Notes: generated from the sequence alone by a model not told the origin. A DNA stretch of 55,262 nt from Planctomycetia bacterium (GCA_005808665.1 SYLG01000094.1:1-55262), one strand, 5' to 3'; numbered from the stretch's first letter, positions 35,389 through 49,374 are shown. Made by a program: numbers and translations.

Positions 35389-36198
35389 GTGAAATCCTTT
35401 GGCCGTTACTTTCGGTTACTGGCATGTTTTGGCAGGTTCAGCATGGCCAGTGAGTTGGCCTTTCGTTGGAATTTCCTGATGAAGATTGCCTTGGAACTTT
35501 TATGGTTGGTGATCCTGCTCACTTTCTACAAAACCCTTTTTGCCAAAACCAGCATTATTTCGGGTTGGACCGAAGGCGAATATCTCTTTTTTGTGGGATG
35601 CTACTATACCCTGGAAGGTGTGATTGAAAGTTTGTTCCTGGAAAATGCCACGGAATTTGCCGAACTCATTCGGAAAGGGGATTTGGATTTCTATTTATTA
35701 AAACCGGTGGATGAACAATTTTTGGTGAGTTTCCGAAAGTTTGATTGGTCCACAGCCCCCAAAATTTTGATTGGGGGGGGACTCATGGGCATTGCCCTTT
35801 TTCAATTGGATTGGGTTTTCGACCCACTGAAGGTGGTTGGTTTTGTCTTCCTGTTTAGCGGTGGGGTTGCTCTTTCCTACGGTTTTTTACTCGCCCTGGC
35901 TTCCACCTCGGTTTGGTTGGTTCGCAATCAGTCCCTTTTGGAATTGTGGTGGCTATTCACTACCTTGATGCGGTATCCCAGGGAAATCTATCAAAGCGGT
36001 TGGGCTTGGAGCCTTTGGGTTTTTTTCTCCCTGGTGGTCCCGGCAATGTTGGTTGTTAGCATTCCCTCTGAAATCATGGTAAGGTCCCTGGACCCTTTTT
36101 GGTCGTTTTGGGTGATTGCTTCTTCGCTCCTTGTCCTCTGGGCAAGTCGCAGGTTTTTTCAACTGGCCATCAGGAGCTATCGAAGCGCCAGTAGCTAA
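35389..36198 (+). CDS. ABC exporter permease, ABC-2/DUF990 family (second)
   Basis: A 269-residue partner permease with about six membrane segments (LLWLVILLTFYKTLF, YLFFVGCYYTLEGVI, ILIGGGLMGIALF, VVGFVFLFSGGVALSYGFLLALAS, LWVFFSLVVPAMLVVSI, WVIASSLLVLWASRRFF). It carries the same type of cytoplasmic coupling motif as its neighbour, RKGDLDFYLLKPVDEQF. The start is GTG 35389, chosen because GGAGG (35376-35380) lies 8 nt before it; an upstream in-frame GTG at 35368 lies inside the preceding gene. It completes the ABC exporter operon. A hairpin-rich space follows before the PqaA-type gene. Confidence 0.88.
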   Translation: MKSFGRYFRLLACFGRFSMASELAFRWNFLMKIALELLWLVILLTFYKTLFAKTSIISGWTEGEYLFFVGCYYTLEGVIESLFLENATEFAELIRKGDLDFYLLKPVDEQFLVSFRKFDWSTAPKILIGGGLMGIALFQLDWVFDPLKVVGFVFLFSGGVALSYGFLLALASTSVWLVRNQSLLELWWLFTTLMRYPREIYQSGWAWSLWVFFSLVVPAMLVVSIPSEIMVRSLDPFWSFWVIASSLLVLWASRRFFQLAIRSYRSASS

Positions 36199-36238
36199 TG
36201 CTCGGGTTCCATTTCCTGAGCCAGGTGCCCTAATTTCC

Positions 36239-36291
36239 AAACCATGGGGATTTTCAGGTCGTAGGATACCAAAAGTCCATGGTTTTTATCC
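36239..36291 (+). promoter_or_regulatory. Overlapping alternative hairpins in a leader region
   Basis: AAACCATGG (36239-36247) is a perfect inverse of CCATGGTTT (36277-36285). The second copy is also inside a competing hairpin, AGGATACCA with TGG..TATCCT, ending near 36291. Only one of the two can form at a time. The position, between the exporter stop and the PqaA-type start, suits either a terminator or a leader control element. No ligand or known class is recognised. Confidence 0.35.
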
Positions 36292-36319
36292 TAATGGCAT
36301 TTTCCCAAGGAAGTTATCC

Positions 36320-37750
36320 ATGAAAAATCCGTTGTTTTTCCGTTCCTTATTTCCTATTGGGGTATTGATTGTCGGTTTTTGGCTATTTCCAGCCGAAAAG
36401 CTCGCTGCCGGGGAAACCGCCCTTGATCGGTATGTCAAAAAGCCCGATGCCACCTATTCCTGGAAATTGGTGCGAGAGGTCAAAGGTGATGGCTTTACCC
36501 AATATGTCCTTGACCTGAAATCCCAAACATGGCGGACCAAAGCCGAGGTGAACAAACCTGTTTGGCAACATTGGGTGATTATCACAAAACCGGATGGAGT
36601 AAAATCCGATAGGGCCTTTCTGTTCATTGGGGGGGGCGGTAACGGTGGGAATCCTCCAGCCAAGGGAGACCAAAACACGATTGCCGTCGCCAAGGTTGCC
36701 AAAACGGTGGCCGTCGAATTGAAAATGATTCCCAACCAAACCCTTATTTTTCATGGTGATGGCAAGGAACGCAAGGAAGATGACCTGATTGGCTATACTT
36801 GGGACCAATATTTGAAAACGGGCGATGAAACCTGGCCCGCCCGCCTACCCATGGTGAAAAGTGCTGTTCGAGCCATGGACTGCGTGCAGGAATTTTTGGG
36901 TGGCGAGCAGGGGGGAAAGGTCCTGATCAACAAATTTGTTGTATCGGGAGGGTCAAAAAGGGGTTGGACCACATGGTGTACTGCTGCAGTGGATGGTCGT
37001 GTGGAAGCAATCATTCCTGCGGTAATTGATGTTCTCAATGTAAATGAGTCCATGCGGCACCACTTGGGTTGTTATGGTTTCTTTACCCATTCGGTTGGGG
37101 ATTATGTTCGGCATAACATCATGCAGCGGATAAACGATCCCAAGCTGACCAAACTCAATGATATTGAAGATCCCTATTCTTACCGGGATCGATTAACCAT
37201 GCCCAAGTTTATCCTCAATGCGGGTGGGGATCAGTTCTTTTGCCCTGATTCTTCACAATTCTATTTTGATGCCCTGAAAGGGGAAAAATACCTTCGTTAT
37301 GTTCCCAACACCGACCACTCCCTGAGGGAATCGGATGCTTTTGAAAGCCTTATTTCCTATTACGATTGCATTGTGAACGGAAAAAAAAGACCGGAATATC
37401 AATGGACCTTTGAGAAAGATGGATCGATCCGACTGAAATGTGACACTCCGGTAAAAGAGGTAAAACTATGGCAGGCAAATAATCCCAAGGCCCGTGATTT
37501 CCGATTGGAGTCCATTGGTAAAGCCTACAAAAGTAAGGTCTTAACGGACCAAGGGGATGGGGTTTATGTGGGCAAGATTGAGTCACCCAAGGAGGGTTGG
37601 ACAGCCTTTTTTGTGGAAATGACCCACGAAACAGGAGGGGTTTTGCATTTGAAAACCACCTCTGGTGTTCGGGTATTGCCCGATATCCTCCCTTTCAAAG
37701 ACGCTGATCCCCAAAAGGGAATCCTCGAAGAAAGGTCAGCCCGGAAATAA
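36320..37750 (+). CDS. Secreted PhoPQ-activated pathogenicity-related (PqaA-type) protein
   Basis: A 476-residue exported protein of the PqaA/AprA family (COG4287), an alpha/beta-hydrolase-like group named from Salmonella but common in planctomycetes and other environmental bacteria. The signal peptide is residues 1-30 (FPIGVLIVGFWLFPAEKLAAG). Family landmarks: ALDRYVKKPDATYSWKLV near the mature start, the WQHWVIITKPD strand, FIGGGGNGG, the nucleophile-elbow-like VVSGGSKRGWTTW, and FILNAGGDQFFCPDSS with NTDHSL, which supply candidate acid and histidine. A hydrolase acting outside the cytoplasm is likely; the substrate is unknown. AAGGAAG precedes ATG 36320. It lies downstream of the exporter genes with 121 nt between. 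Confidence 0.88.
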   Translation: MKNPLFFRSLFPIGVLIVGFWLFPAEKLAAGETALDRYVKKPDATYSWKLVREVKGDGFTQYVLDLKSQTWRTKAEVNKPVWQHWVIITKPDGVKSDRAFLFIGGGGNGGNPPAKGDQNTIAVAKVAKTVAVELKMIPNQTLIFHGDGKERKEDDLIGYTWDQYLKTGDETWPARLPMVKSAVRAMDCVQEFLGGEQGGKVLINKFVVSGGSKRGWTTWCTAAVDGRVEAIIPAVIDVLNVNESMRHHLGCYGFFTHSVGDYVRHNIMQRINDPKLTKLNDIEDPYSYRDRLTMPKFILNAGGDQFFCPDSSQFYFDALKGEKYLRYVPNTDHSLRESDAFESLISYYDCIVNGKKRPEYQWTFEKDGSIRLKCDTPVKEVKLWQANNPKARDFRLESIGKAYKSKVLTDQGDGVYVGKIESPKEGWTAFFVEMTHETGGVLHLKTTSGVRVLPDILPFKDADPQKGILEERSARK

Positions 37751-39103: not shown

Positions 39104-40753
39104 ATGAATACCCACGCCATTAGGGTCTTGCGGGAAAAACTGCAAAAGGATGAACCAGTTTACGGATTGTGGGTAACCTTGGAATCGCCAAGCATTACGG
39201 AAATGGCCGTGGCCCTGGGAGTGGATTGGGTCGTTATAGATGCGGAACATGGTCACCTGGATTGGAAGGATATTGTTGCCCATGTCCGGACAACCGTTCG
39301 TAGCTCCACGGTGGTCCTTGTCAGGATAGCTGAACTAAATGGCGGACTCATCAAACGGGCACTGGATATTGGGTCTGATGGTGTTGTCGTGCCCTGGATC
39401 GAAACGGCAGACCAGCTCGAGGAGGCCATTTCCTATGCCCGCTATCCGCTGGAAGGTGTTCGCGGGATTGGAGCGGAAAGGGCCACCTGCTGGGGACAAA
39501 GCCTTGTGGAACATACCGCTCTTGCAAATGAAAATGTCCTCGTTGTACCCATTCTTGAAACCATTCAAACGATGTCCCAAGTATCCAGAATGTGTCAAGT
39601 CGAAGGAGCGGAATTGTTCTTTTTTGGCCCAGCCGATTTTTCATCGACTGCCGGGGCTCGTGGTCACTGGGAAGGACCAGGTGTTGCTGAAAAAATATTG
39701 GAAATGAAGGACATTTTAAGGCAAGCGGGTAAAAAATGTGGCGTGATTGCAACCAATCCGGAAAACCTGGTGGAGCGGCGCCGGCAAGGATTTCAGATGA
39801 TTGGGCTTGGGACAGATACCGGGCTTTTATTGAGGTCCTTAAAATCGACACTTGATGCAGTAGGCCGGGATCGTCCCATCCAGGCATCGCTTATTCCGCT
39901 GGAAATGGAAAAAACAATGCCTTTAACCATCCTTCCCGGGTCGATGCGGCCGGACCGTCCCGAAAGTATGTCGCCGGTGGGAAACGGGCCCAAAATGGAG
40001 GTGGCACCTGGGGTGAGTTTTGAAGGTTTGGTTGGTGGCCACAATAAGGCAAGACGACTTACAACGGGATTGGTCACATTTGCTCCGGGTGCGGTTTTAC
40101 CTTCCCACATACATACCTTCGCAGAGTCCATTACATTGTTGCATGGTTCTGCCACTGTGGAGGTTGAAGGCCGACTTTATCGCCTAAACAAGATGGATAA
40201 TATCGTCATACCAACCGGGCGAGTTCATATGGCCCGTAATTTATCCACTACCGAAAACGCTGTTTTTCACATCGCTTTGGCCTCAGATTCCCCTTCGAGG
40301 ACCCTCGTCGATATGAATTTCCCCCAAACCCAAATGCAAGCTGATGCAGTAGGTCATCCTGGTGCGGAGCGTTTTAACAGGTTTGCCACAGCCAAACGCT
40401 TTGCTGCTGGGCCAAACACCGAGTTTATTGACCTTTTCAATTCTGATTTGGTGCCTGGTATCGAAATGAGCGGAGGTTACGGGTTATTTCACCCAACAGG
40501 ACGATTGCCCGCCCATGTTCATGATTTCGATGAATCCATTACCATTATTTCCGGGCAGGCAACCTGCATGGTTGAGGGCCGCCAGTATTTGATGAAAGAA
40601 GCAACGGCCTTTGTTCCCAGGGGAAGGGTCCATTATTTCATCAACGATTCCCTGGAAACAATGGAAATGCTCTGGGTTTATGCCGGCCCCATGCCTGTCC
40701 GCATTGTAGTCGATGAATTGTGTGCAACAGTGGAAGGAAACCCTTGGCAATGA
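39104..40753 (+). CDS. HpcH/HpaI-family aldolase fused to a bicupin
   Basis: A 549-residue two-part protein. Residues 1-265 are an HpcH/HpaI aldolase, a metal-dependent class II enzyme that splits 2-keto-3-deoxy sugar acids or 4-hydroxy-2-oxo acids to pyruvate plus an aldehyde. Motifs are LWVTLESPSITEMAVALGVDWVVIDAEHGHLDW, VRIAELNGGLIKRALDIGSDGVVVPWI, the metal ligand in PILETIQTM and FFGPADFSSTAG. Residues about 270-549 form two cupin domains, each with metal-site patterns: HIHTFAE and GRVHM in the first, HVHDFDE and GRVHY in the second. I know of no named enzyme with this fusion. The cupins may isomerise, oxygenate or sense the substrate. The gene overlaps the next by 4 nt (ATGA). No ribosome site is clear at ATG 39104, but a good promoter lies upstream. 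Confidence 0.88.
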   Translation: MNTHAIRVLREKLQKDEPVYGLWVTLESPSITEMAVALGVDWVVIDAEHGHLDWKDIVAHVRTTVRSSTVVLVRIAELNGGLIKRALDIGSDGVVVPWIETADQLEEAISYARYPLEGVRGIGAERATCWGQSLVEHTALANENVLVVPILETIQTMSQVSRMCQVEGAELFFFGPADFSSTAGARGHWEGPGVAEKILEMKDILRQAGKKCGVIATNPENLVERRRQGFQMIGLGTDTGLLLRSLKSTLDAVGRDRPIQASLIPLEMEKTMPLTILPGSMRPDRPESMSPVGNGPKMEVAPGVSFEGLVGGHNKARRLTTGLVTFAPGAVLPSHIHTFAESITLLHGSATVEVEGRLYRLNKMDNIVIPTGRVHMARNLSTTENAVFHIALASDSPSRTLVDMNFPQTQMQADAVGHPGAERFNRFATAKRFAAGPNTEFIDLFNSDLVPGIEMSGGYGLFHPTGRLPAHVHDFDESITIISGQATCMVEGRQYLMKEATAFVPRGRVHYFINDSLETMEMLWVYAGPMPVRIVVDELCATVEGNPWQ

Positions 40754-41805
40754 GCGAATCGACTCCCTTCCGGGTGGCCCTAACCGCGGATTTCTACCAT
40801 TCCGATGGTGCGTTAAAGTACCGGGATATTGGCTTGGATTCCCTGGAATCCGCCGGGGGGTTTAGTGTAAGCCGATTTGCCACCCATCTACCCGAGATTG
40901 GGGCGGAACAACTTTCAGGTGTCAACGGGGTCATTGTTCTCACCCCTACCGTAACGGCCGAGAGCCTTGCAAAGGCTTCGGAATTGTTGGGTATTGGTCG
41001 CTTTGGAGTGGGTTACGATGGTGTCAATGTAGGTGCCTGCACGGCGGCGGATGTGGTCCTTTTTATCGCCGCTGGGGCGGTGGATCATTCCGTAGCAGAA
41101 GCTACTGTGGGTTGGATGTTGGCCCTGAACCACCATATCCGGAAAAAGGATCATTTGGTTCGCCTTGGACATTGGGATGCCCGAAGCCAATACATGGGAA
41201 GCGAACTTCGTGGGAGAACACTAGGCGTTATCGGGTTCGGCGGCATTGGCCAAAGTGTGGTAAGACTTTTGTCGACCTTTGGCATGAATACTCCCCTGGT
41301 TTACGACCCTTTTGTATCACCCGAAGCCGTTACAAGGGCGGGTGTGAAAACGGTGTCGCTTGAACAACTTCTAACCCAATCGGATTTCGTTTCCATCCAC
41401 TGTCCACTCAACTCTTCCACACGCAATTTGTTATCCCAAAGGGAATTGTCCCTGTTGAAGCCGACCGCTTATTTATTGAATACCGCCAGGGGAGGAATTA
41501 TTGAAGAAGATGCCCTTTATGATTTGTTAAGAGCGGGAAAAATTGCGGGGGCTGCCCTGGATTGTTTCGTGGACGAACCGATTATTGTCCCTCCCCGTTG
41601 GGCCCAGCTTGATAATGTTTTGCTGGCTCCCCATTCGATCGCCTGGACGGATGAGCTGTTTCGGGACATTGGCCGGGCGGCGTGCCAGGGAATGATTGAC
41701 CTGGCAAAGGGCCATCGTCCCAAGGGGGTGATCAATCCCGAGGTGTTTGATCGGGCAAGTTTCCTGGCAAAGTGGAAGCGGTTGATTCAAGGTGGAACAA
41801 AATAA
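40750..41805 (+). CDS. D-2-hydroxyacid dehydrogenase family protein
   Basis: A 351-residue NAD-dependent dehydrogenase of the D-3-phosphoglycerate/glyoxylate reductase family, which interconverts 2-hydroxy and 2-oxo acids. The nucleotide-binding fold is TLGVIGFGGIGQSVVRLL. Catalytic residues are visible as Arg in LLNTARGGII, Glu in DCFVDEPI and His in LAPHSIAW. HSVAEATVGWMLAL precedes the Rossmann domain, as usual. ATG 40750 overlaps the stop of the aldolase-bicupin gene as ATGA, so the two are translationally coupled. This suggests the dehydrogenase forms the oxo acid that the aldolase cleaves, or reduces its product. It is convergent with the zinc alcohol dehydrogenase gene, with 59 bp between stops. 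Confidence 0.9.
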   Translation: MSESTPFRVALTADFYHSDGALKYRDIGLDSLESAGGFSVSRFATHLPEIGAEQLSGVNGVIVLTPTVTAESLAKASELLGIGRFGVGYDGVNVGACTAADVVLFIAAGAVDHSVAEATVGWMLALNHHIRKKDHLVRLGHWDARSQYMGSELRGRTLGVIGFGGIGQSVVRLLSTFGMNTPLVYDPFVSPEAVTRAGVKTVSLEQLLTQSDFVSIHCPLNSSTRNLLSQRELSLLKPTAYLLNTARGGIIEEDALYDLLRAGKIAGAALDCFVDEPIIVPPRWAQLDNVLLAPHSIAWTDELFRDIGRAACQGMIDLAKGHRPKGVINPEVFDRASFLAKWKRLIQGGTK

Positions 41806-41864: not shown

Positions 41865-42953
41865 TTATTTCATCATCACCTGGGCCGGGTTAATTGCCTT
41901 GTGCAAACCCTTGTTTGCCGTAATCTGGAAAGCCATAGGCACCGACTCGATCCCCTTTAATACATGGGTAATGGTCGGTTTCAAACGGACTCGACCGGAG
42001 GCAACCAGGCGAACAGTGTGTTCCAGATGAGCCTTGGTGCTGATATCCGGAAAGAGGTATCGCAGGCTCCGCTCCCGCAAGCGGTCGACATCCAGTTCCA
42101 ACGGCCCGCCAAACCAGGAAACGCCAACCACTTTACCCCCGGATCGAACCGAGTCGATGGCTTGTCCAAGGGTTTTGGTTCCTGCCAAACCCTGTTTTGG
42201 ACTGCCCCCAGCACATTCAAACACCACATCGGCACCATTGCCTCCGGTTAGTTCCCGGATCGCCTCAACCACATCGGTGTTCCCTGCATTGATCGCATGG
42301 TCTGCCCCGAGTTCTTTCGACATCAGGCAGGACTCTTCCCGGACATCCACAGTAATCACCCGACCGGCACCGCTGATCCGGGCGATTTGTAGGCATTCAA
42401 GTCCCATGCTTCCCTGCCCAAAAATGACAACTGTATCCCCCATCTGAATCGAGGCGGTTTCCACCGCGGCAATGCTGTCACTAAGGGATTGTAAACAGGC
42501 AGCTTCGCTGTTTGAAATACGATCATCGACCTTGACCAAAGCAATTTCAGGCAAGATAGCCAATTCGCTAAAACAGCCAGGCAAGTCAAATCCGATGACT
42601 GGCCCCTTGCGGCACAGGTAACTTCGCTCGGACAAACACAAGGGGCATTTTTCGCAAGGTAGTTTGGCACGGGCCGCCACCCGGTCGCCTGGTTGAAAAC
42701 CAAAAACGCCTTCGCCCACTTCGACAATGCGGGCACAAAACTCATGACCAAAAAGCTGTACAGGGGCCTCCGTGGCAAAACGCTTTTTGATCCGGTCAAA
42801 GGCCAGGGTCGGAATTCCAAAGGCAAGTTGGGCCTCGGTAACGCTTGGTTGGACGCAAAGCGGTTCCACGATCACATGGCGTGGTATAAGGGTCGGTGGT
42901 GGGACTTCGTCGAGTCGCATATCGTTGAAGCCATAAAAACGCCAAGCTTTCAT
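41865..42953 (-). CDS. Zinc-dependent alcohol dehydrogenase (medium-chain)
   Basis: A 362-residue medium-chain dehydrogenase/reductase. The catalytic zinc region shows GHEFCARIVEVGEGV with a preceding Cys in PLCVQPSVTEAQ. The structural zinc is held by four cysteines in CEKCPLCLSERSYLC. The cofactor domain is DTVVIFGQGSMGLECLQIARISGAGRVITVDV, of NAD(P) type. Relatives oxidise sorbitol, threonine or other polyols and alcohols; the exact substrate is unknown. The ATG at 42953 has AAAAGG 8 nt upstream. The gene is last in a minus-strand series after the NHL and SMP-30 genes, so it probably oxidises a sugar-derived alcohol in the same pathway. Confidence 0.9.
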   Translation of the reverse strand: MKAWRFYGFNDMRLDEVPPPTLIPRHVIVEPLCVQPSVTEAQLAFGIPTLAFDRIKKRFATEAPVQLFGHEFCARIVEVGEGVFGFQPGDRVAARAKLPCEKCPLCLSERSYLCRKGPVIGFDLPGCFSELAILPEIALVKVDDRISNSEAACLQSLSDSIAAVETASIQMGDTVVIFGQGSMGLECLQIARISGAGRVITVDVREESCLMSKELGADHAINAGNTDVVEAIRELTGGNGADVVFECAGGSPKQGLAGTKTLGQAIDSVRSGGKVVGVSWFGGPLELDVDRLRERSLRYLFPDISTKAHLEHTVRLVASGRVRLKPTITHVLKGIESVPMAFQITANKGLHKAINPAQVMMK

Positions 42954-43025: not shown

Positions 43026-44024
43026 TCAGGGAATTTCAACCGGACGGACAAACTTTTGCAAAGAATGGCAATCGGGGGAAACAAGTCCCCGATTTCCACC
43101 TGCTGACATGACAACCTCTGCAACATAAACATCTCCCCTCGAATCTACGCAAATATCATGGGGAGCAAAGAAATCCCCTGGGTCGGTAGGTCGGGAGCCT
43201 CCTCCCCATTGATGGATTAGTTTCCCGCAAGGATTCAATACCCTTACCCTTCCGCCGGTGGCATTGGCACAGGGTGGAACTGTCCCAGGCCACATTCCGG
43301 CATGATAACCGAGTTCTGCAACAAACAGGTTGCCCACCCGGTCAAAAGCCACCTGGCACGGTCTTGCTATTTCCCTCCGCTCGTCAAGGAATTGTCCCGT
43401 TGGGGAGAATATCTGGATTCGGTGGTTTTCACGATCGGCAACAAACACCTTACCCTGTTGATTCACCGCAATTCCGTGGGGTACATGAAAGGACCCTGGT
43501 CCGTTCCCGGGTTCCCCCCAGGAAAACAATAACCGACCATTTGGAGAGAATTTGTGGATGCAGGCGTTGCCGTAACCATCCGAGACATAAATGTCTCCTT
43601 CGGGAGAAAGTGCGACATTGGTCGGAAAATGAAAAGGAAGACCTGAGGTTTTGATGGTGCGATAATCTATGCTGGTTGCCCCTGTTTTCGATGGTTTCCC
43701 GCTGGTTCCGAGGGTCATCAATAAGTGACCATCAGGGGTGAATTGGCGTACCGTATGGTCAAGGTCATCCGTGCAATAAACCAAATCATCCGGTCCAATG
43801 GTGATACCATGAGCCCGTGCAAATATGCCCTCGCCCCAGGAGGTCACGAACTTTCCATCACGGTCGAACACCATGACCGGATGGTCACCCCGATTGAAAA
43901 CAAAGACACGGTCTTTCGAATCGGTTGCAATGGCAGCCACTTCGTACCAACCCCAATGGTCCGGCAATTGGGCCCAATGGTCATTTGCCTCGAAAGGGCC
44001 GGGCAATGTATTATCATTGTTCAT
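43026..44024 (-). CDS. NHL-repeat beta-propeller protein
   Basis: A 332-residue protein built of NHL repeats, each with the pattern of a propeller blade: IATDSKDRVFVFNRGDHPVMVFDRDGKFV, ARAHGITIGPDDLVYCTDDLDHTVRQFTPDGHLL, FPTNVALSPEGDIYVSDGYGNACIHKFSPNGRLL, VPHGIAVNQQGKVFVADRENHRIQIFSPTGQFL and two weaker ones. The family includes the peptidyl-alpha-hydroxyglycine amidating lyase fold, but a lyase role is not shown. No signal peptide is visible, unlike many homologues. It starts 6 nt after the SMP-30 gene stop and is likely part of that operon. It may bind or transform the sugar ligand handled by its neighbours. Confidence 0.85.
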   Translation of the reverse strand: MNNDNTLPGPFEANDHWAQLPDHWGWYEVAAIATDSKDRVFVFNRGDHPVMVFDRDGKFVTSWGEGIFARAHGITIGPDDLVYCTDDLDHTVRQFTPDGHLLMTLGTSGKPSKTGATSIDYRTIKTSGLPFHFPTNVALSPEGDIYVSDGYGNACIHKFSPNGRLLFSWGEPGNGPGSFHVPHGIAVNQQGKVFVADRENHRIQIFSPTGQFLDERREIARPCQVAFDRVGNLFVAELGYHAGMWPGTVPPCANATGGRVRVLNPCGKLIHQWGGGSRPTDPGDFFAPHDICVDSRGDVYVAEVVMSAGGNRGLVSPDCHSLQKFVRPVEIP

Positions 44025-44030
44025 CAGGAA

Positions 44031-45101
44031 TTAATTCCCCGCCTTTTGTGGGTGAAATCCCTGCGTTTTGAGGCGAATGCGAAATAGGCTTTTGTCGATT
44101 GTTACATAAAGCAGATTGCTGTCAACGCCTCCGCCAAATTCCACATTGCTGGGAATTCCTTTCCAATCTTCGAAGAGTCCGGATTGATTTCTGGGGCCGG
44201 TTGGGATGAATGCCAATTCCTTGCCTTTTGGATTAACCACCAAAATTCCAGGCCGGGAAAGGCTTCGGGATGCAATATAAAGGTTTCCCGTGACATCAAC
44301 CCGCATCCCATCACTTCCATTTTCCTTTCCAAAATCGATAATGGTTTTCCTGGAACCGTTTACCCGTCCCTGTTTATCCAATGGAAACGAATAAATTTTC
44401 ATTGCCCCTCGTTTTGGCTCTGGATCCGAGGGGCTAAGCCGGTTGCCACCATTGTTGTGGTCGGCGACAAACATGGTACGCTGGTCAGGGCTTAGAGCAA
44501 TGCCATTTGGTTTTTCCACCTCGCGAGTGACCTCTGTTACGGTGCCATCTTTTTCAATTCGGTAGACCGCCTCGGGGGTTAGTTCACGGGGTTCAGTGCC
44601 GCCGTAACGGGGATCGGTAAAGTAAATGTGTCCTTTCAGGCTTACACACAAATCGTTTGGGGAATTGAATCGTTTGCCTTGGAATCGATCTGCAACCACT
44701 TCGCTTTGGCCTGTTTTCAAGTTCCACCGCCTTACACTGCGGCTGCCCCCATCCGCACCGTCACAGGAAAGCAGGTTGCCAGAAAGATCGAAAGCCAACT
44801 CATTTGATTTTCCCGAAAGGCTGGTAAAAGGCGTTGTCTTCCCGGTGCTGGGATCGAAACGCAGAATCATGCCATTTTCCTTGCCAAAGGGAAGGTCGGT
44901 AAAATAAATGCTTCCGTCTGGGGCGAGGGCCGGGCCTTCCGTAAGGCCGCTATTGAGAGAAACCTGTCTGAGGTGGATCCTTTCCAAAACGGCCCCTTTT
45001 GGAACAATGGGGTTTTCCACCAATTCGTCCCCTTTTACACCAGTTCCTTCAAAAAGGCAAAGAGCGATAAACAGGGCTGGAATTCGATGTCGGCAAATCA
45101 T
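44031..45101 (-). CDS. SMP-30/gluconolactonase family protein, exported
   Basis: A 356-residue six-bladed propeller of the SMP-30/gluconolactonase/LRE group, which hydrolyses sugar lactones to aldonic acids. A signal peptide occupies residues 1-24 (ALFIALCLFEGTGVKG), so it works outside the cytoplasm. Family segments are LTEGPALAPDGSIYFTDLPFG, NSPNDLCVSLKGHIYFTDPRYGG (the metal-ligand Asn and Asp), KPNGIALSPDQRTMFVAD and GSDGMRVDVTGNLYIAS. The start ATG 45101 overlaps the DUF1501 stop by 4 nt (ATGA). Product aldonic acid would suit the dehydratase, dehydrogenase and aldolase steps expected of the neighbours. The lactone substrate is not identified. Confidence 0.88.
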   Translation of the reverse strand: MICRHRIPALFIALCLFEGTGVKGDELVENPIVPKGAVLERIHLRQVSLNSGLTEGPALAPDGSIYFTDLPFGKENGMILRFDPSTGKTTPFTSLSGKSNELAFDLSGNLLSCDGADGGSRSVRRWNLKTGQSEVVADRFQGKRFNSPNDLCVSLKGHIYFTDPRYGGTEPRELTPEAVYRIEKDGTVTEVTREVEKPNGIALSPDQRTMFVADHNNGGNRLSPSDPEPKRGAMKIYSFPLDKQGRVNGSRKTIIDFGKENGSDGMRVDVTGNLYIASRSLSRPGILVVNPKGKELAFIPTGPRNQSGLFEDWKGIPSNVEFGGGVDSNLLYVTIDKSLFRIRLKTQGFHPQKAGN

Positions 45102-46570
45102 GCTAAAATCCCTTTCACAAGAGAGGCTTCAAGGACACCCGTAAGGCGCTCCCTAAGTCCATTATCCATTACAAACAATTGGTCATGATGGAGCCCAAGC
45201 AGGTGGAGAATGGTGGCGTGCCAGTCGGCGACGCTGACACGGTTTTCCACGGCGGCAAGACCGATTTCATCTGTTCTGCCAAAGGAGGTTCCTGGTTTGA
45301 TCCCGGCCCCAGCCATCCAGGTGGTGAAGGCGTTTTTGTTATGGTCCCGGCCTGCTTTTCGTTCGTCCTTGTCAGGGGACATTTGGGCGATGGGGAGCCT
45401 ACCAAATTCTCCTCCCCAGACCACCAAAGTACTTTCGAAAAGGCCCCGTTGTTTTAGATCCCCCAACAAAGCGGCAATGGGTTGGTCGGTTCTTTCACAG
45501 GCTTTTTTCATGTCTGAAGCCAACCCCGTATGGTTGTCCCAAATCTGTGCATTGATATACAGTTGGACAAATCGCACTCCGCGTTCCACCAGTCGTCGGG
45601 CTATCAGGCAGCGGCGGCCATAGCTGTCGGTCGGCTCACGGCCAATACCGTACTGGTCCTTGGTATCCTTGCTTTCCCCGGTAATATCAAGAGCATCGCT
45701 TGCCGCCAACTGCATTCTTGCCGCCAGTTCATAGGTTTCCATGCGGGCGTCAAGCGCAGGTTGGTTTGGTCTCATTTTGCGATGCAATTTGTCCAGTTCG
45801 GTTCGTAATTTGACCTCCGTTTGGATTACCTCCAATGGCCGTTCCACCTCGGGTCGCAGATTTAACACGGGCGACCCGGTTGGACGAAAACGCGTTCCCT
45901 GAAAAGTTGGCGGCAAGAATCCGGCCTGCCAATTTTCCACACCATTGATGGGTAACCCCAAAGGGTCATCAAGCACCACATACGCCGGTAGGTTTTCCGA
46001 TTCGCTCCCTAATCCGTACACCACCCAGGAACCGAGAGTAGGCCGCCCGGGACCCATCTTTCCCGATTGGATCAGGTAAAGGGCGGGTTCGTGCGTCAAA
46101 TTTGTGGTGTGCATGGACCGGATAAAAGCAATGTCATCGACCTTTTTGGCCAAATGGGGCATGGCATCCGATACCCACATTCCGCTTTGGCCATATTGGC
46201 CAAAACGAAACGGGCTTTTCATCAATGCCCCTGCACTCTGCGGATTTTCCACCTCTCCGGCGATCTTGTCAAAGTAGGTCTTGCCATGGTTTTTATCGAG
46301 GAAAGGTTTCGGATCAAACAAATCCATTTGGCTCGGGCCACCATTCATGAATAGGTGAATTACCGAGTTGGCCTTCGCGGGAAAATGGGGTTGCCTTGGC
46401 TTGAGATTGGCGGGTTCGGTAGGAATACGCTCGGATGCACAAAGCTTAGGAAACGATGAATGGTGGTTGAACAAATAGCCCAAGGCCGCACCACAAAGGC
46501 CACCTTGCATGCTATTGAACAAATCCCGGCGGGTAATGGCAGGGGATGAAAATGGAAAATAATCAGGCAT
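45098..46570 (-). CDS. DUF1501 protein with Tat signal
   Basis: A 490-residue planctomycete-type DUF1501 protein, related to the sulfatase/alkaline phosphatase fold. The N-terminus has a twin-arginine motif (TRRDLFNSMQGGLCGAALGYLF), so it is probably exported folded by Tat. Family segments are VIHLFMNGGPSQMDLFDPKP, HLAKKVDDIAFIRSMHTTNLTHEPAL, GSWVVYGLGSE, GVRFVQLYI, and VVWGGEFGRLPIAQ. The function of DUF1501 is not established. These proteins almost always pair with PSCyt/DUF1549/DUF1553 proteins, as here, where the PSD1 gene ends 14 nt upstream. ATG 46570 gives the usual length. Translation is coupled to the SMP-30 gene downstream. Confidence 0.93.
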   Translation of the reverse strand: MPDYFPFSSPAITRRDLFNSMQGGLCGAALGYLFNHHSSFPKLCASERIPTEPANLKPRQPHFPAKANSVIHLFMNGGPSQMDLFDPKPFLDKNHGKTYFDKIAGEVENPQSAGALMKSPFRFGQYGQSGMWVSDAMPHLAKKVDDIAFIRSMHTTNLTHEPALYLIQSGKMGPGRPTLGSWVVYGLGSESENLPAYVVLDDPLGLPINGVENWQAGFLPPTFQGTRFRPTGSPVLNLRPEVERPLEVIQTEVKLRTELDKLHRKMRPNQPALDARMETYELAARMQLAASDALDITGESKDTKDQYGIGREPTDSYGRRCLIARRLVERGVRFVQLYINAQIWDNHTGLASDMKKACERTDQPIAALLGDLKQRGLFESTLVVWGGEFGRLPIAQMSPDKDERKAGRDHNKNAFTTWMAGAGIKPGTSFGRTDEIGLAAVENRVSVADWHATILHLLGLHHDQLFVMDNGLRERLTGVLEASLVKGILA

Positions 46571-46584
46571 CAGGTTACCGTGGG

Positions 46585-49374
46585 TTAATCCACATAAAGG
46601 AAATCCGCAGAGTTGATGATTGCGTGGCAATAAGCGGTTAGTGCCTTTTGTTGAAGGCTATCCGGATGGGGCAGGCCCCCGTGGGAGGGTTGTTTGGTCC
46701 ATTTTTCAAATAAGGAACGCAAGGCTTTAATTCCCATGGATAGTTCATTGGGTTTGGGTGGCCTCCCAAGGGCAATCAAATAAATGCGCTCCACCTGTTG
46801 TTTTGTATCGGTCCCAACCTCACCTTTCACCCGGATGGCGAATTGTTCAGCTAGGTGAAAAACCATGCCATTATTCATCAGGTGAAGGGCTTGCGGAGCA
46901 ACCACCGAATCACGCCTCTCAATGCAGTTGGGATTCATTTGGGGGAAATCAAAAGTTTCCATATGCGATGCAATGAGCTTTCGCATTTGGCTAACATAAA
47001 TAAGCCTACGCCATCCTTTCGGGGTTCCCGCCGTTGTAACCAACCCATCGGCCCTGGCGTTGACCGTGTCTCCCGGTCCGTAACGGGTTTCGTCCAATCG
47101 GCCGGCAAGAAGTAACAAGCTGTCATAGAGTGCTTCTGCATCCAGTCTGGTCAACGGCATTCGGGAAACGAAACGGTTGTCCGGATCGGCCTTTTCCTTT
47201 TCAGGGCTAATTCCGGAGCTTTGCCGATAAGTCGTGCTGGTCATCATGAGGCGGTGCATGGCTTTCATGCTCCACCCATTTTGGACGAATTCAAGGGCAA
47301 GCCAGTCCAGCAATTCCGGGTGGGAGGGAGGGTCACCAGCTTTGCCAAAATTCCCCAAGGATTTAACGATGCCCCTGCCAAAGTGGTGTTTCCAAATGCG
47401 ATTGACCGCCACCCGGCCGGTAAGGGGATGGTTCGGCATGGTCAACCATTGGGCAAAGGCAAGCCGCCGACCTGTTTGCTTCGCCCCGGTCCATGGAGCT
47501 TTATTCTCAAAGGGAGTTTTGCCATCGGTCAACATCGAAGGGACGCCCGGCCCAACCAATCGACCTGGAGTAAGAGGATCCCCGCGATGATAAATGTAGG
47601 TGGGGGTAGGCATTCCCCTGTCCCACAAAGCTTGGATCCTGGGTTCAGGACGCCGGTTGGCTTCGAGTTTTTTGACCATTTCCTCGGGTTTTGGTTTGGT
47701 CTTTGCTGTTTTGATTTCCTGGGAAATCAAGGCTTCGCTTTCTTCCCAAGCCTTTCGCTCCTTGGAAGTGACAAAGGGCAGGTGCCTTCCCGGGATGACA
47801 TCTTGACTAACAGGACCAATCCCGGGGCGGACATCAGGTTTAAGCCAATCGTTTTCGTCCAAAGCCCCTTTGAAAATATCCACCAACCGGTAATAGTCCC
47901 GATGGGGAATGGGATCGAATTTGTGGCTGTGACAGCGGGCACATTTCAATGTGAGTCCCATTACCGCCGAGCCCAAAACATCCATTTCGTCGGCAATCAC
48001 CTCGAGGCGATCAGGGACATATCCAGTAATGTTTGCCCAGGTTGCATCCGGGGCCATCCGCAAAAAACCGGTGGCAACCAGGTTGTCATAAATCTCCTGG
48101 GTGATTTCCGGGGCGTGTTCATAATCTGCCAGTTCGTCGCCCGCAAGCTGTTCCAGCAGGAACCGGTTGTAACCTTTATCGGAGTTAAGAGATCTGATGA
48201 CATAGTCGCGATAACGCCAGGCATGGGGGCGGGGCAGGTCTTGCTCCCGTTTTCCTTCTGAGTCCGCATAGCCAGCAAGGTCCAGCCAATAACGGCCCCA
48301 CCTTTCCCCGTAACGGGGAGTTGCCAATAATCGGTCGATCATTTTTTCATAGGCACCTGGGTCCGGGTTGTTACAGAAGGCCGCCAATTCAACAGGCTCA
48401 GGGGGAAGGCCGGTAAGGTCGAAATAAGCCCGGCGCATAAGAGTGGCCCGGGATGCTTCCGGGGCGAAACCAATACCTTTTTTTTGGAGTTTATCAAGGA
48501 TGAATGCATCGATGGGATTTCGGATGTTTTCCCCAGGAGACACTTTGGGAATGGCAACCCTTTCTGGAGATCGAAAAGACCAAAAATCCCGATCCTTATC
48601 ACTCACCAGAGGATCAGGTTTTGTGGTGGCAATATCAGCCAAAAGGGAACCTTCGGGGGCCCCAAGGGTGATCCACCTGGCCAGTTTTTCGATCTCTTCC
48701 GGTTCAATCGGTTTGACACATGCTTCCACAAGTCGATCATTGGGAGGCATCTTTCCTTGCCTGGTTTTTTGAATGATCCGGCTCTCCTCTGGTTTTCCCA
48801 AATCGATAGCCGGGCCGGTTTTTCCACCCTTAAGCATGGATGCCTTGGTCCTAAGGTCCAAACCCGCCTCCTTGCGGTGAAGCCCATGGCAGGCGGTGCA
48901 TCGACGCATAAGAATGGGGAGGACATCATGGAAACCTGAATCGGGCGTTACCGGGATAATATCAGCCATCCCAGTGGAGGTTTTGGCCCCTTGGGAAATC
49001 CACAATTGAATCGAATGGACTTCTGCTTCGGTCAACCGGTCTTTTTTCCCGGGAGGCATCTCTCCACTTTGGATTTTGGAGAAAAGCAAGCTTTTGTCTG
49101 GCTTGCCTGGGACGATTACCGGCCCGGATTCGCCACCTTTTTGCAATCCTTTGGGTGTTGCTAGATCAAGGTCCCCTTTTACCGCCTCACCGCCGTGACA
49201 ACGATGACATTTGGCCCGAAAAAGCGGTTGAATGGTGGTTTCAAACGACACCATGGGAAGGGACGCTTTTGCTTTGGGTGGCAAGTTGCCGTCGGCCAAG
49301 GCCATCGGAGACAACCCCAATGCCAATAAAAAACTGGCAAAAAGGACCCAATTCGGTGAAGGACAAGGAGGCAT
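46585..49374 (-). CDS. Planctomycete cytochrome C/DUF1549/DUF1553 (PSD1) protein
   Basis: A 929-residue secreted protein of the planctomycete-specific PSD1 type. The order is signal peptide (1-28), a PSCyt1 haem-like domain (CHRCH near residue 56, with GEMPPGKKDRLTEAE), a second such unit (CTACH), DUF1549/PSCyt2 (NPIDAFILDKLQKKG..ATPRYGERWGRYWLDLAGYADSEG, CARCHSHKFDPIPHRDYY), and DUF1553 (NHPLTGRVAVNRIWKHHFGRGIV, GWRRLIYVSQMRK). Three CxxCH sites suggest redox or haem binding, although the biochemical role is not settled. The gene opens a minus-strand run: PSD1, DUF1501, SMP-30, NHL and zinc alcohol dehydrogenase. This kind of pair is often linked to polysaccharide or sugar use in planctomycetes, which fits the downstream enzymes. 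Confidence 0.93.
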   Translation of the reverse strand: MPPCPSPNWVLFASFLLALGLSPMALADGNLPPKAKASLPMVSFETTIQPLFRAKCHRCHGGEAVKGDLDLATPKGLQKGGESGPVIVPGKPDKSLLFSKIQSGEMPPGKKDRLTEAEVHSIQLWISQGAKTSTGMADIIPVTPDSGFHDVLPILMRRCTACHGLHRKEAGLDLRTKASMLKGGKTGPAIDLGKPEESRIIQKTRQGKMPPNDRLVEACVKPIEPEEIEKLARWITLGAPEGSLLADIATTKPDPLVSDKDRDFWSFRSPERVAIPKVSPGENIRNPIDAFILDKLQKKGIGFAPEASRATLMRRAYFDLTGLPPEPVELAAFCNNPDPGAYEKMIDRLLATPRYGERWGRYWLDLAGYADSEGKREQDLPRPHAWRYRDYVIRSLNSDKGYNRFLLEQLAGDELADYEHAPEITQEIYDNLVATGFLRMAPDATWANITGYVPDRLEVIADEMDVLGSAVMGLTLKCARCHSHKFDPIPHRDYYRLVDIFKGALDENDWLKPDVRPGIGPVSQDVIPGRHLPFVTSKERKAWEESEALISQEIKTAKTKPKPEEMVKKLEANRRPEPRIQALWDRGMPTPTYIYHRGDPLTPGRLVGPGVPSMLTDGKTPFENKAPWTGAKQTGRRLAFAQWLTMPNHPLTGRVAVNRIWKHHFGRGIVKSLGNFGKAGDPPSHPELLDWLALEFVQNGWSMKAMHRLMMTSTTYRQSSGISPEKEKADPDNRFVSRMPLTRLDAEALYDSLLLLAGRLDETRYGPGDTVNARADGLVTTAGTPKGWRRLIYVSQMRKLIASHMETFDFPQMNPNCIERRDSVVAPQALHLMNNGMVFHLAEQFAIRVKGEVGTDTKQQVERIYLIALGRPPKPNELSMGIKALRSLFEKWTKQPSHGGLPHPDSLQQKALTAYCHAIINSADFLYVD

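Follow-up and report, generated by a model that had tools for sequence, protein, structure and literature searches.

An aldolase–bicupin fusion linked to a D-2-hydroxyacid dehydrogenase recurs in planctomycetes and verrucomicrobia and may mark a sugar-acid pathway

What kind of pathway would call for a 2-oxo-acid aldolase and two cupin barrels in a single polypeptide, with a hydroxyacid dehydrogenase encoded directly behind them? The question is raised by two genes in the window, by which we mean the whole 55,262-nucleotide stretch of planctomycete DNA that was analyzed.

The fusion gene and its dehydrogenase partner

Positions 39104–40753 of the + strand form a single uninterrupted frame with an ATG start that encodes an aldolase–bicupin fusion of 549 residues. 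A sequence-only reading of this DNA had described an HpcH/HpaI aldolase covalently joined to two metal-type cupins and translationally coupled to a D-2-hydroxyacid dehydrogenase (DH). Both descriptions hold: the domains lie in one frame, are recognized by Pfam and recur together in relatives, and the DH start codon can be read directly within the ATGA overlap that ends the fusion (40750–40753). The fusion is not an assembly accident, because 80 related loci retained from whole-genome contigs are 52–75% identical to it and nearly all are full length. The fusion falls below the cut-off of every curated NCBIfam equivalog. The earlier statement that no enzyme of this architecture is known to have been described agrees with its absence from NCBIfam, PDB sequences and the open-access papers searched. 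Those papers gave two loose matches and no description of an HpcH–cupin fusion, and a subscription journal may yet contain one. The clear promoter described upstream of the fusion is not supported. A simple scan of the + strand upstream of 39104 found no sigma-70-type promoter, and the sole promoter-like match in that region is on the − strand, compared with 3.4 matches expected by chance. A promoter may still be present, as planctomycete promoters may follow rules other than those of a sigma-70 scan. Upstream of the fusion, the window also encodes a PhoPQ-activated pathogenicity-related family protein at 36116–37750 (PF10142, E = 1.2e-125).

The N-terminal part of the fusion (39104–39889, residues 1–262) is by homology a class II, metal-dependent HpcH/HpaI aldolase domain. 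It matches PF03328 at residues 20–243 (E = 1.7e-29, 103.2 bits vs a gathering score of 25) and, in profile comparisons, the HpaI structure 7et8 (E = 6.8e-52) and YfaU 2vws (E = 1e-44). His49, Arg74, Glu152 and Asp178, positions matched to HpaI 7et8, are invariant in all 65 aligned fusions; from what is known of HpaI, we take His49 to be the base, Arg74 to be an active-site residue and Glu152 and Asp178 to be metal ligands. Scores against the equivalog models stay well below their cut-offs for 4-hydroxy-2-oxoheptanedioate aldolase (HpaI, TIGR02311; E = 6.9e-45, 153.4 vs 368.8 bits), 2-dehydro-3-deoxyglucarate aldolase (GarL, TIGR03239; E = 1.4e-36, 126.3 vs 406.75 bits) and 2-keto-3-deoxy-L-rhamnonate aldolase (YfaU/RhmA, NF007521; E = 3.5e-33, 115.3 vs 441 bits). 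With a length of ∼250–340 residues, the models and PDB chains that match cover the aldolase part alone. The invariant sites and the gene content support the assignment of this half as a probable 2-oxo-acid aldolase with the DH as its partner.

A linker (39890–39967, residues 263–288), modeled partly at low confidence (pLDDT < 50 at residues 265–271), leads into the bicupin. Because the model of the whole fusion has a pTM of only 0.56 (pLDDT 87.5), the relative placement of the domains is unsure; the bicupin modeled alone reaches a pLDDT of 95.2 and a pTM of 0.92. Cupin domain 1 (39968–40303, approximately residues 289–400) and cupin domain 2 (40361–40708, approximately residues 420–535) correspond to the two stretches of the fusion matched by the Cupin_2 Pfam model (E = 1.5e-22), and each barrel has the predicted His-His-Glu-His metal site expected of the cupin superfamily. 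The ligands of the first site (His335, His337, Glu341 and His375) are each present in 65/65 aligned fusions, and those of the second are nearly as constant (His471 in 65, His473 in 64, Glu477 in 63 and His510 in 65 of 65).

The DH gene (40750–41805, + strand) encodes a 351-residue, NAD-type D-2-hydroxyacid dehydrogenase that matches 2-Hacid_dh_C (PF02826, E = 4.9e-54) and 2-Hacid_dh (PF00389, E = 3.1e-16). As expected for this family, the Arg247/Glu276/His295 triad is invariant in 38/38 sequences, as is Asp186, which presumably favors NAD. The GxGxxG motif is present, with its third glycine kept in 31 of 38 sequences, and the best PDB profile matches are phosphoglycerate dehydrogenase and glyoxylate reductase.

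Distribution and rewiring of the parts

A search of other genomes refutes the idea that the fused architecture is unique to this assembly: there are 94 non-redundant, full aldolase–bicupin fusions, with 52–75% identity to the window protein among the 65 that were aligned. The carriers are labeled Planctomycetota or Verrucomicrobiota; many of the genomes are metagenome-assembled, and several carrier titles (e.g. Kuenenia, Akkermansia) look like loose labels. In a set of genomes sampled by class, an E ≤ 1e-60 match to the aldolase, the bicupin or the fusion was present in 69 of 298. Two genomes of the window's own genus lack the fusion, and in a tree of the aldolase domain the window protein groups with those of loci L004–L009 and L161 (98% SH-aLRT) rather than with the aldolase–DH fusions of its own family. 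These two observations make it possible that the window fusion was acquired by horizontal transfer. Gene calls around the loci come from our own codon-model script, and neighbors were labeled by BLAST matches to reference proteins, most families being checked by Pfam or NCBIfam.

After duplicate removal, the 119 core loci comprise the 94 aldolase–bicupin fusions, 4 loci where aldolase and bicupin are neighboring genes, 9 where the aldolase is fused directly to the DH with no bicupin, 9 with the aldolase alone and 3 with the bicupin alone, some of the "alone" loci perhaps having been cut by contig ends. The aldolase–DH fusions, seven of which have an SMP-30 gene nearby, were verified by Pfam in L144:4956–6854, L145:3953–5833 and L157:4806–6743 and were also seen in L196–L200. 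On a quickly built aldolase-domain tree, which has long outgroup branches and whose support is limited to SH-aLRT values, these DH fusions have at least two origins nested among the cupin fusions, and the architecture changes at least 11 times overall. In genus g309 (L181, L185–L187), the aldolase, bicupin, DH, an SDR and a xylose-isomerase-like TIM protein are separate genes in series. Operons of the L135/L136 type combine a stand-alone bicupin, 36–40% identical, with genes for an Ldh_2 dehydrogenase, SMP-30 and NHL, and in L133 a stand-alone aldolase adjoins an Ldh_2 gene with a rhaM-type protein near it. The existence of bicupin-only and aldolase-only operons shows that the bicupin is not always needed, and with the Ldh_2 genes counted, 2-hydroxyacid dehydrogenases of one family or another are recurrent partners.

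The DH itself lies within six genes of the fusion in 64 of the 94 fusion loci, and several genomes with no adjacent DH have an orthologous or 44% identical DH elsewhere. This conserved linkage, together with the aldolase–DH gene fusions, supports the earlier proposal of a dedicated aldolase–bicupin–DH module and suggests that the aldolase and DH steps are consecutive or coupled. An apparent triple fusion of aldolase, DH and SMP-30 (L143:5384–8305, 973 residues) was rejected as a frameshift, whether of sequencing or real, because the DH C-terminus is out of frame and the SMP-30 part has its own leader-like N-terminus. Beside one fusion operon, in the opposite orientation, L037:11978–13617 encodes a second HpcH/HpaI aldolase (29%) and a second D-2-hydroxyacid dehydrogenase (35%).

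Neighboring sugar and microcompartment genes

In the window, the fusion and DH genes are followed on the − strand by a convergent zinc-type alcohol dehydrogenase (ADH) gene (41865–42953; Pfam ADH_zinc_N and ADH_N), an NHL-repeat beta-propeller gene (43026–44024; Pfam NHL) and a gene for an SMP-30/gluconolactonase-type lactonase (44031–45101; PF08450, E = 6.5e-29) whose N-terminus resembles a signal peptide by eye. The same set occurs in L164, L175 and L176, and the NHL gene also in L135 and L136. The ADH linkage is kept in the first three at 81–82% identity, and in L164 the ADH is on one strand with the fusion, DH, SMP-30 and NHL genes. The two genes adjoining SMP-30 in the window (45098–49374) are presumably the planctomycete DUF1501/DUF1553 pair; relatives occur near other fusion loci.

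The shared neighbors of the fusion are sugar and sugar-acid genes and appear in three settings. In the first, SMP-30 is adjacent (15 of 94 fusion loci), often with NHL and zinc ADH as in the window, L164, L175 and L176, or, in a variant, with MR_MLE and an MFS transporter (L008, L161). The second, with an SDR and a xylose-isomerase-like TIM protein, is found in 27 fusion loci and is variously accompanied by alpha-L-rhamnosidase, RhaT, GH140-like or BMC-T genes; a named strain with the fusion–DH–SDR–TIM set is Aquisphaera insulae JC669 (L038). The third, with an ApnL-like gene, is found in 5, three of which also have an SBF transporter. Rhamnose genes recur among these neighbors. An alpha-L-rhamnosidase gene directly follows that for TIM in five fusion loci (L061, L070, L072, L078, L191) and three split ones (L181, L185, L186), RhaT exceeds its NCBIfam cut-off in L045 and L151 and RhaT-type genes are also present in L147 and L149, and L133 encodes a protein of the rhamnose mutarotase (rhaM) type. 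The window has no rhamnose-specific neighbor, and its own genome has no RhaA. Across genomes, RhaA shows no association with the presence of the aldolase or fusion (20/69 vs 48/229, p = 0.19), so that it neither supports nor excludes rhamnose. The uronate-like substrate suggested by the sequence-only reading is not supported: no uronate gene was identified among the annotated neighbors, and those that recur are ApnL-like and GH140-like genes and the genes for rhamnosidase, RhaT, rhamnose mutarotase and SMP-30. An aromatic (HpaI/homoprotocatechuate) pathway was rejected on similar grounds, no such gene being among the annotated neighbors.

Bacterial microcompartment (BMC) shell genes form a further link. 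Twelve verrucomicrobial fusion loci (Opitutae) have a BMC-T gene, which in Opitutae loci is seen directly behind the fusion–DH–SDR–TIM row. In six of the 12, the fusion operon runs into BMC-T, BMC-H and BMC-P-like genes; in the other six (L048, L051, L055, L060, L068, L081), BMC-T is a satellite shell gene with no BMC-H in the neighborhood counted. The L055 BMC-T contains PF00936 twice. A class II aldolase ends the gene row in L046, L050, L057, L059 and L079 (PF00596 in L057). Shell genes and a class II aldolase at one locus, the pattern of a PVM-type BMC, are seen in relatives and are not adjacent to the fusion in the window. The window's own genome has a PVM-like locus on another contig (G000:C155:57797–58350; L160:12780–18783) with two BMC-H genes and acetate-kinase-like, BMC-P-like, aldehyde dehydrogenase and class II aldolase genes. 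Two enolase-superfamily genes lie ∼15–20 kb upstream of that locus on the same contig. BMC genes are present in 47 of 51 fusion genomes, but we rejected this co-occurrence as evidence; it says little because, in the phylum sample, almost every genome of the same class carries BMC genes. The gene-level association is confined to one verrucomicrobial clade.

A candidate pathway and its known counterparts

Our leading, though tentative, reading is that the fusion and DH belong to a catabolic module for a 2-hydroxy or 2-oxo acid of sugar origin, acting by an oxidative, non-phosphorylating route; the sugar is most likely L-rhamnose or another 6-deoxyhexose like it. We infer its reactions, substrate and bicupin role from gene content and domain families; L-rhamnose or a similar methylpentose leads because the rhamnosidase, RhaT, rhaM and PVM-BMC links recur in different lineages. 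The sugar would be oxidized to a lactone by the ADH or SDR and the lactone opened to an aldonate by the SMP-30 or ApnL-like lactonase. The NAD-type DH could then oxidize the (2R)-hydroxyl to give a 2-oxo acid, which the HpcH/HpaI domain would cleave to pyruvate or hydroxypyruvate and an aldehyde. From a 6-deoxyhexose, this aldehyde would be L-lactaldehyde, which could enter the PVM-type microcompartment of these genomes. The bicupin may be an accessory metal-dependent isomerase that acts on the open-chain 2-oxo acid and supplies the aldolase with its reactive form. Either order of steps would fit: the DH might precede the aldolase, with the aldonate as its substrate, or follow it and use pyruvate or hydroxypyruvate.

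An enolase-superfamily dehydratase might instead convert the aldonate to a 2-keto-3-deoxy acid. MR_MLE members, and likewise IlvD/Edd-type genes, are present in 33 of the 33 genomes searched, which makes this intermediate possible, and an MR_MLE gene is linked to the fusion in only 7 of 94 loci. Given their presence in every genome searched, a lack of dehydratases was rejected as support for a dehydratase-free route. We consider it improbable that PVC bacteria use such a non-phosphorylating methylpentose route in full, with the DH oxidizing C2 of the aldonate, the bicupin isomerizing the product and the aldolase releasing hydroxypyruvate and L-lactaldehyde for processing in the microcompartment.

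The clues to the substrate conflict, as the ApnL-like and GH140-like genes point to apiose and MR_MLE with a D-galactonate-transporter-like MFS protein points to another aldonate. The 6-deoxyhexose reading has a serious, if rather less probable, rival in a substrate that differs between lineages: the core would handle several 2-oxo acids, and neighboring lactonases, glycosidases and transporters would set the sugar in each lineage. The constant core is accompanied by varied upstream sets (SMP-30, NHL and ADH; SDR and TIM; ApnL-like and SBF; MR_MLE and MFS), which fits such a module, but TIM and SDR are well conserved (mean column identity 68% and 67%), which suggests one substrate for the SDR–TIM subtype. 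A module specific for D-apiose or D-apionate is doubtful. In PVC bacteria it would correspond to the D-apionate pathways already described: the lactonase would yield D-apionate, the DH would oxidize its (2R)-hydroxyl, and the bicupin would isomerize the resulting branched 2-oxo acid for cleavage by the aldolase. The ApnL-like genes that adjoin the fusion in five loci and the GH140 apiosidase-like genes of L041, L047 and L150 (SDR–TIM setting) fit this idea, but the ApnL-like protein scores 266.6 bits against NF049900 (E = 4.6e-79), whose equivalog cut-off is 750, apiose contexts are fewer than SDR–TIM contexts with rhamnosidase, RhaT or BMC genes, and the retro-aldol cleavage of branched apionate would be chemically awkward.

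Two further proposals concern the bicupin alone. Its best structural matches are the quercetin dioxygenase YxaG (Z = 25.6, with a weak sequence match at E = 2.6e-10) and oxalate decarboxylase (Z = 24.8), and alpha-L-rhamnosidases occur nearby, so that it could be an oxygenase or decarboxylase acting on an aglycone or dicarboxylate freed by neighboring glycosidases. This seems very unlikely. Seed globulins and ureidoglycine aminohydrolase also match at Z ∼22, and identity across the matches is only 10–18%. Because bicupins this unrelated all score Z ∼22–26, the matches indicate the fold only, and we rejected a function read from it, since generic bicupins were matched and no reaction was identified. 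The covalent tie to a 2-oxo-acid aldolase and the absence of aromatic-degradation genes among the annotated neighbors also argue against this proposal. Least probable of all is a bicupin that regulates the aldolase as a non-catalytic sensor or gate, gating having been suggested in the earlier reading, for although cupins often bind sugars in regulators and the fusion matches AraC_binding (E = 1.9e-06), all but a few of the 65 fusions retain both metal sites, the bicupin is a separate protein beside the aldolase in L181 and L185–L187, and each occurs without the other in related operons.

If the 6-deoxyhexose reading is correct, the bicupin would gain a metabolic function, its known structural relatives carrying out quite different chemistry. 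More broadly, the fused gene appears to mark a widespread, apparently undescribed sugar-acid pathway in planctomycetes and verrucomicrobia, which are consumers of plant and algal polysaccharides, and suggests an uncharacterized route for the breakdown of plant or algal sugars. The natural rewiring of the domains (aldolase with bicupin, aldolase with DH, or all separate) makes step order and channeling directly testable.

A known parallel in gene content is the non-phosphorylating L-rhamnose pathway (LRA1–4), which uses an SDR dehydrogenase, a lactonase and a 2-keto-3-deoxy-rhamnonate aldolase. The fusion loci have an SDR, a lactonase and a 2-keto-acid aldolase in common with it but differ in having the D-2-hydroxyacid dehydrogenase, the bicupin and the xylose-isomerase-like TIM protein, and in the scarcity of a linked MR_MLE gene. 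The products of the LRA aldolase are given as pyruvate and L-lactaldehyde (PMC9699597). With D-apionate catabolism (ApnL and its partners), the shared element is the ApnL-like lactonase, whereas the tested protein scores far under the threshold for ApnL and none of the pathway's partner enzymes was identified adjoining the fusion. The class II pyruvate aldolases HpaI, YfaU (RhmA) and GarL share the family, fold and active-site residues of the aldolase half, but their models are of stand-alone size, whereas here two cupins, or in relatives a dehydrogenase, are fused to it.

Lactaldehyde produced from fucose and rhamnose is a known substrate of PVM BMCs (PMC8217296, PMC8857213), and ACI-type BMC loci contain a hydroxyacid dehydrogenase (PMC8217296). 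The six Opitutae loci share with PVM loci the BMC-T, BMC-H and BMC-P-like genes and, where the locus is long enough, the class II aldolase. The aldolase of described PVM loci is of this class II (AraD-like) type, in contrast to the HpcH/HpaI aldolase of the fusion, and the open-access literature searched contains no paper linking an HpcH/HpaI aldolase to a BMC. The Opitutae link, if true, would provide a second, non-phosphorylating supply route for the lactaldehyde-handling microcompartment. Finally, RhaEW is a fusion of rhamnulose-1-phosphate aldolase and lactaldehyde dehydrogenase (PMC3870299), which unites an aldolase and a dehydrogenase that catalyze consecutive reactions of methylpentose catabolism and is paralleled by the aldolase–DH fusions in relatives of the window protein. 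RhaEW cleaves a sugar phosphate, whereas the proteins described here combine an HpcH/HpaI 2-oxo-acid aldolase with a D-2-hydroxyacid dehydrogenase.
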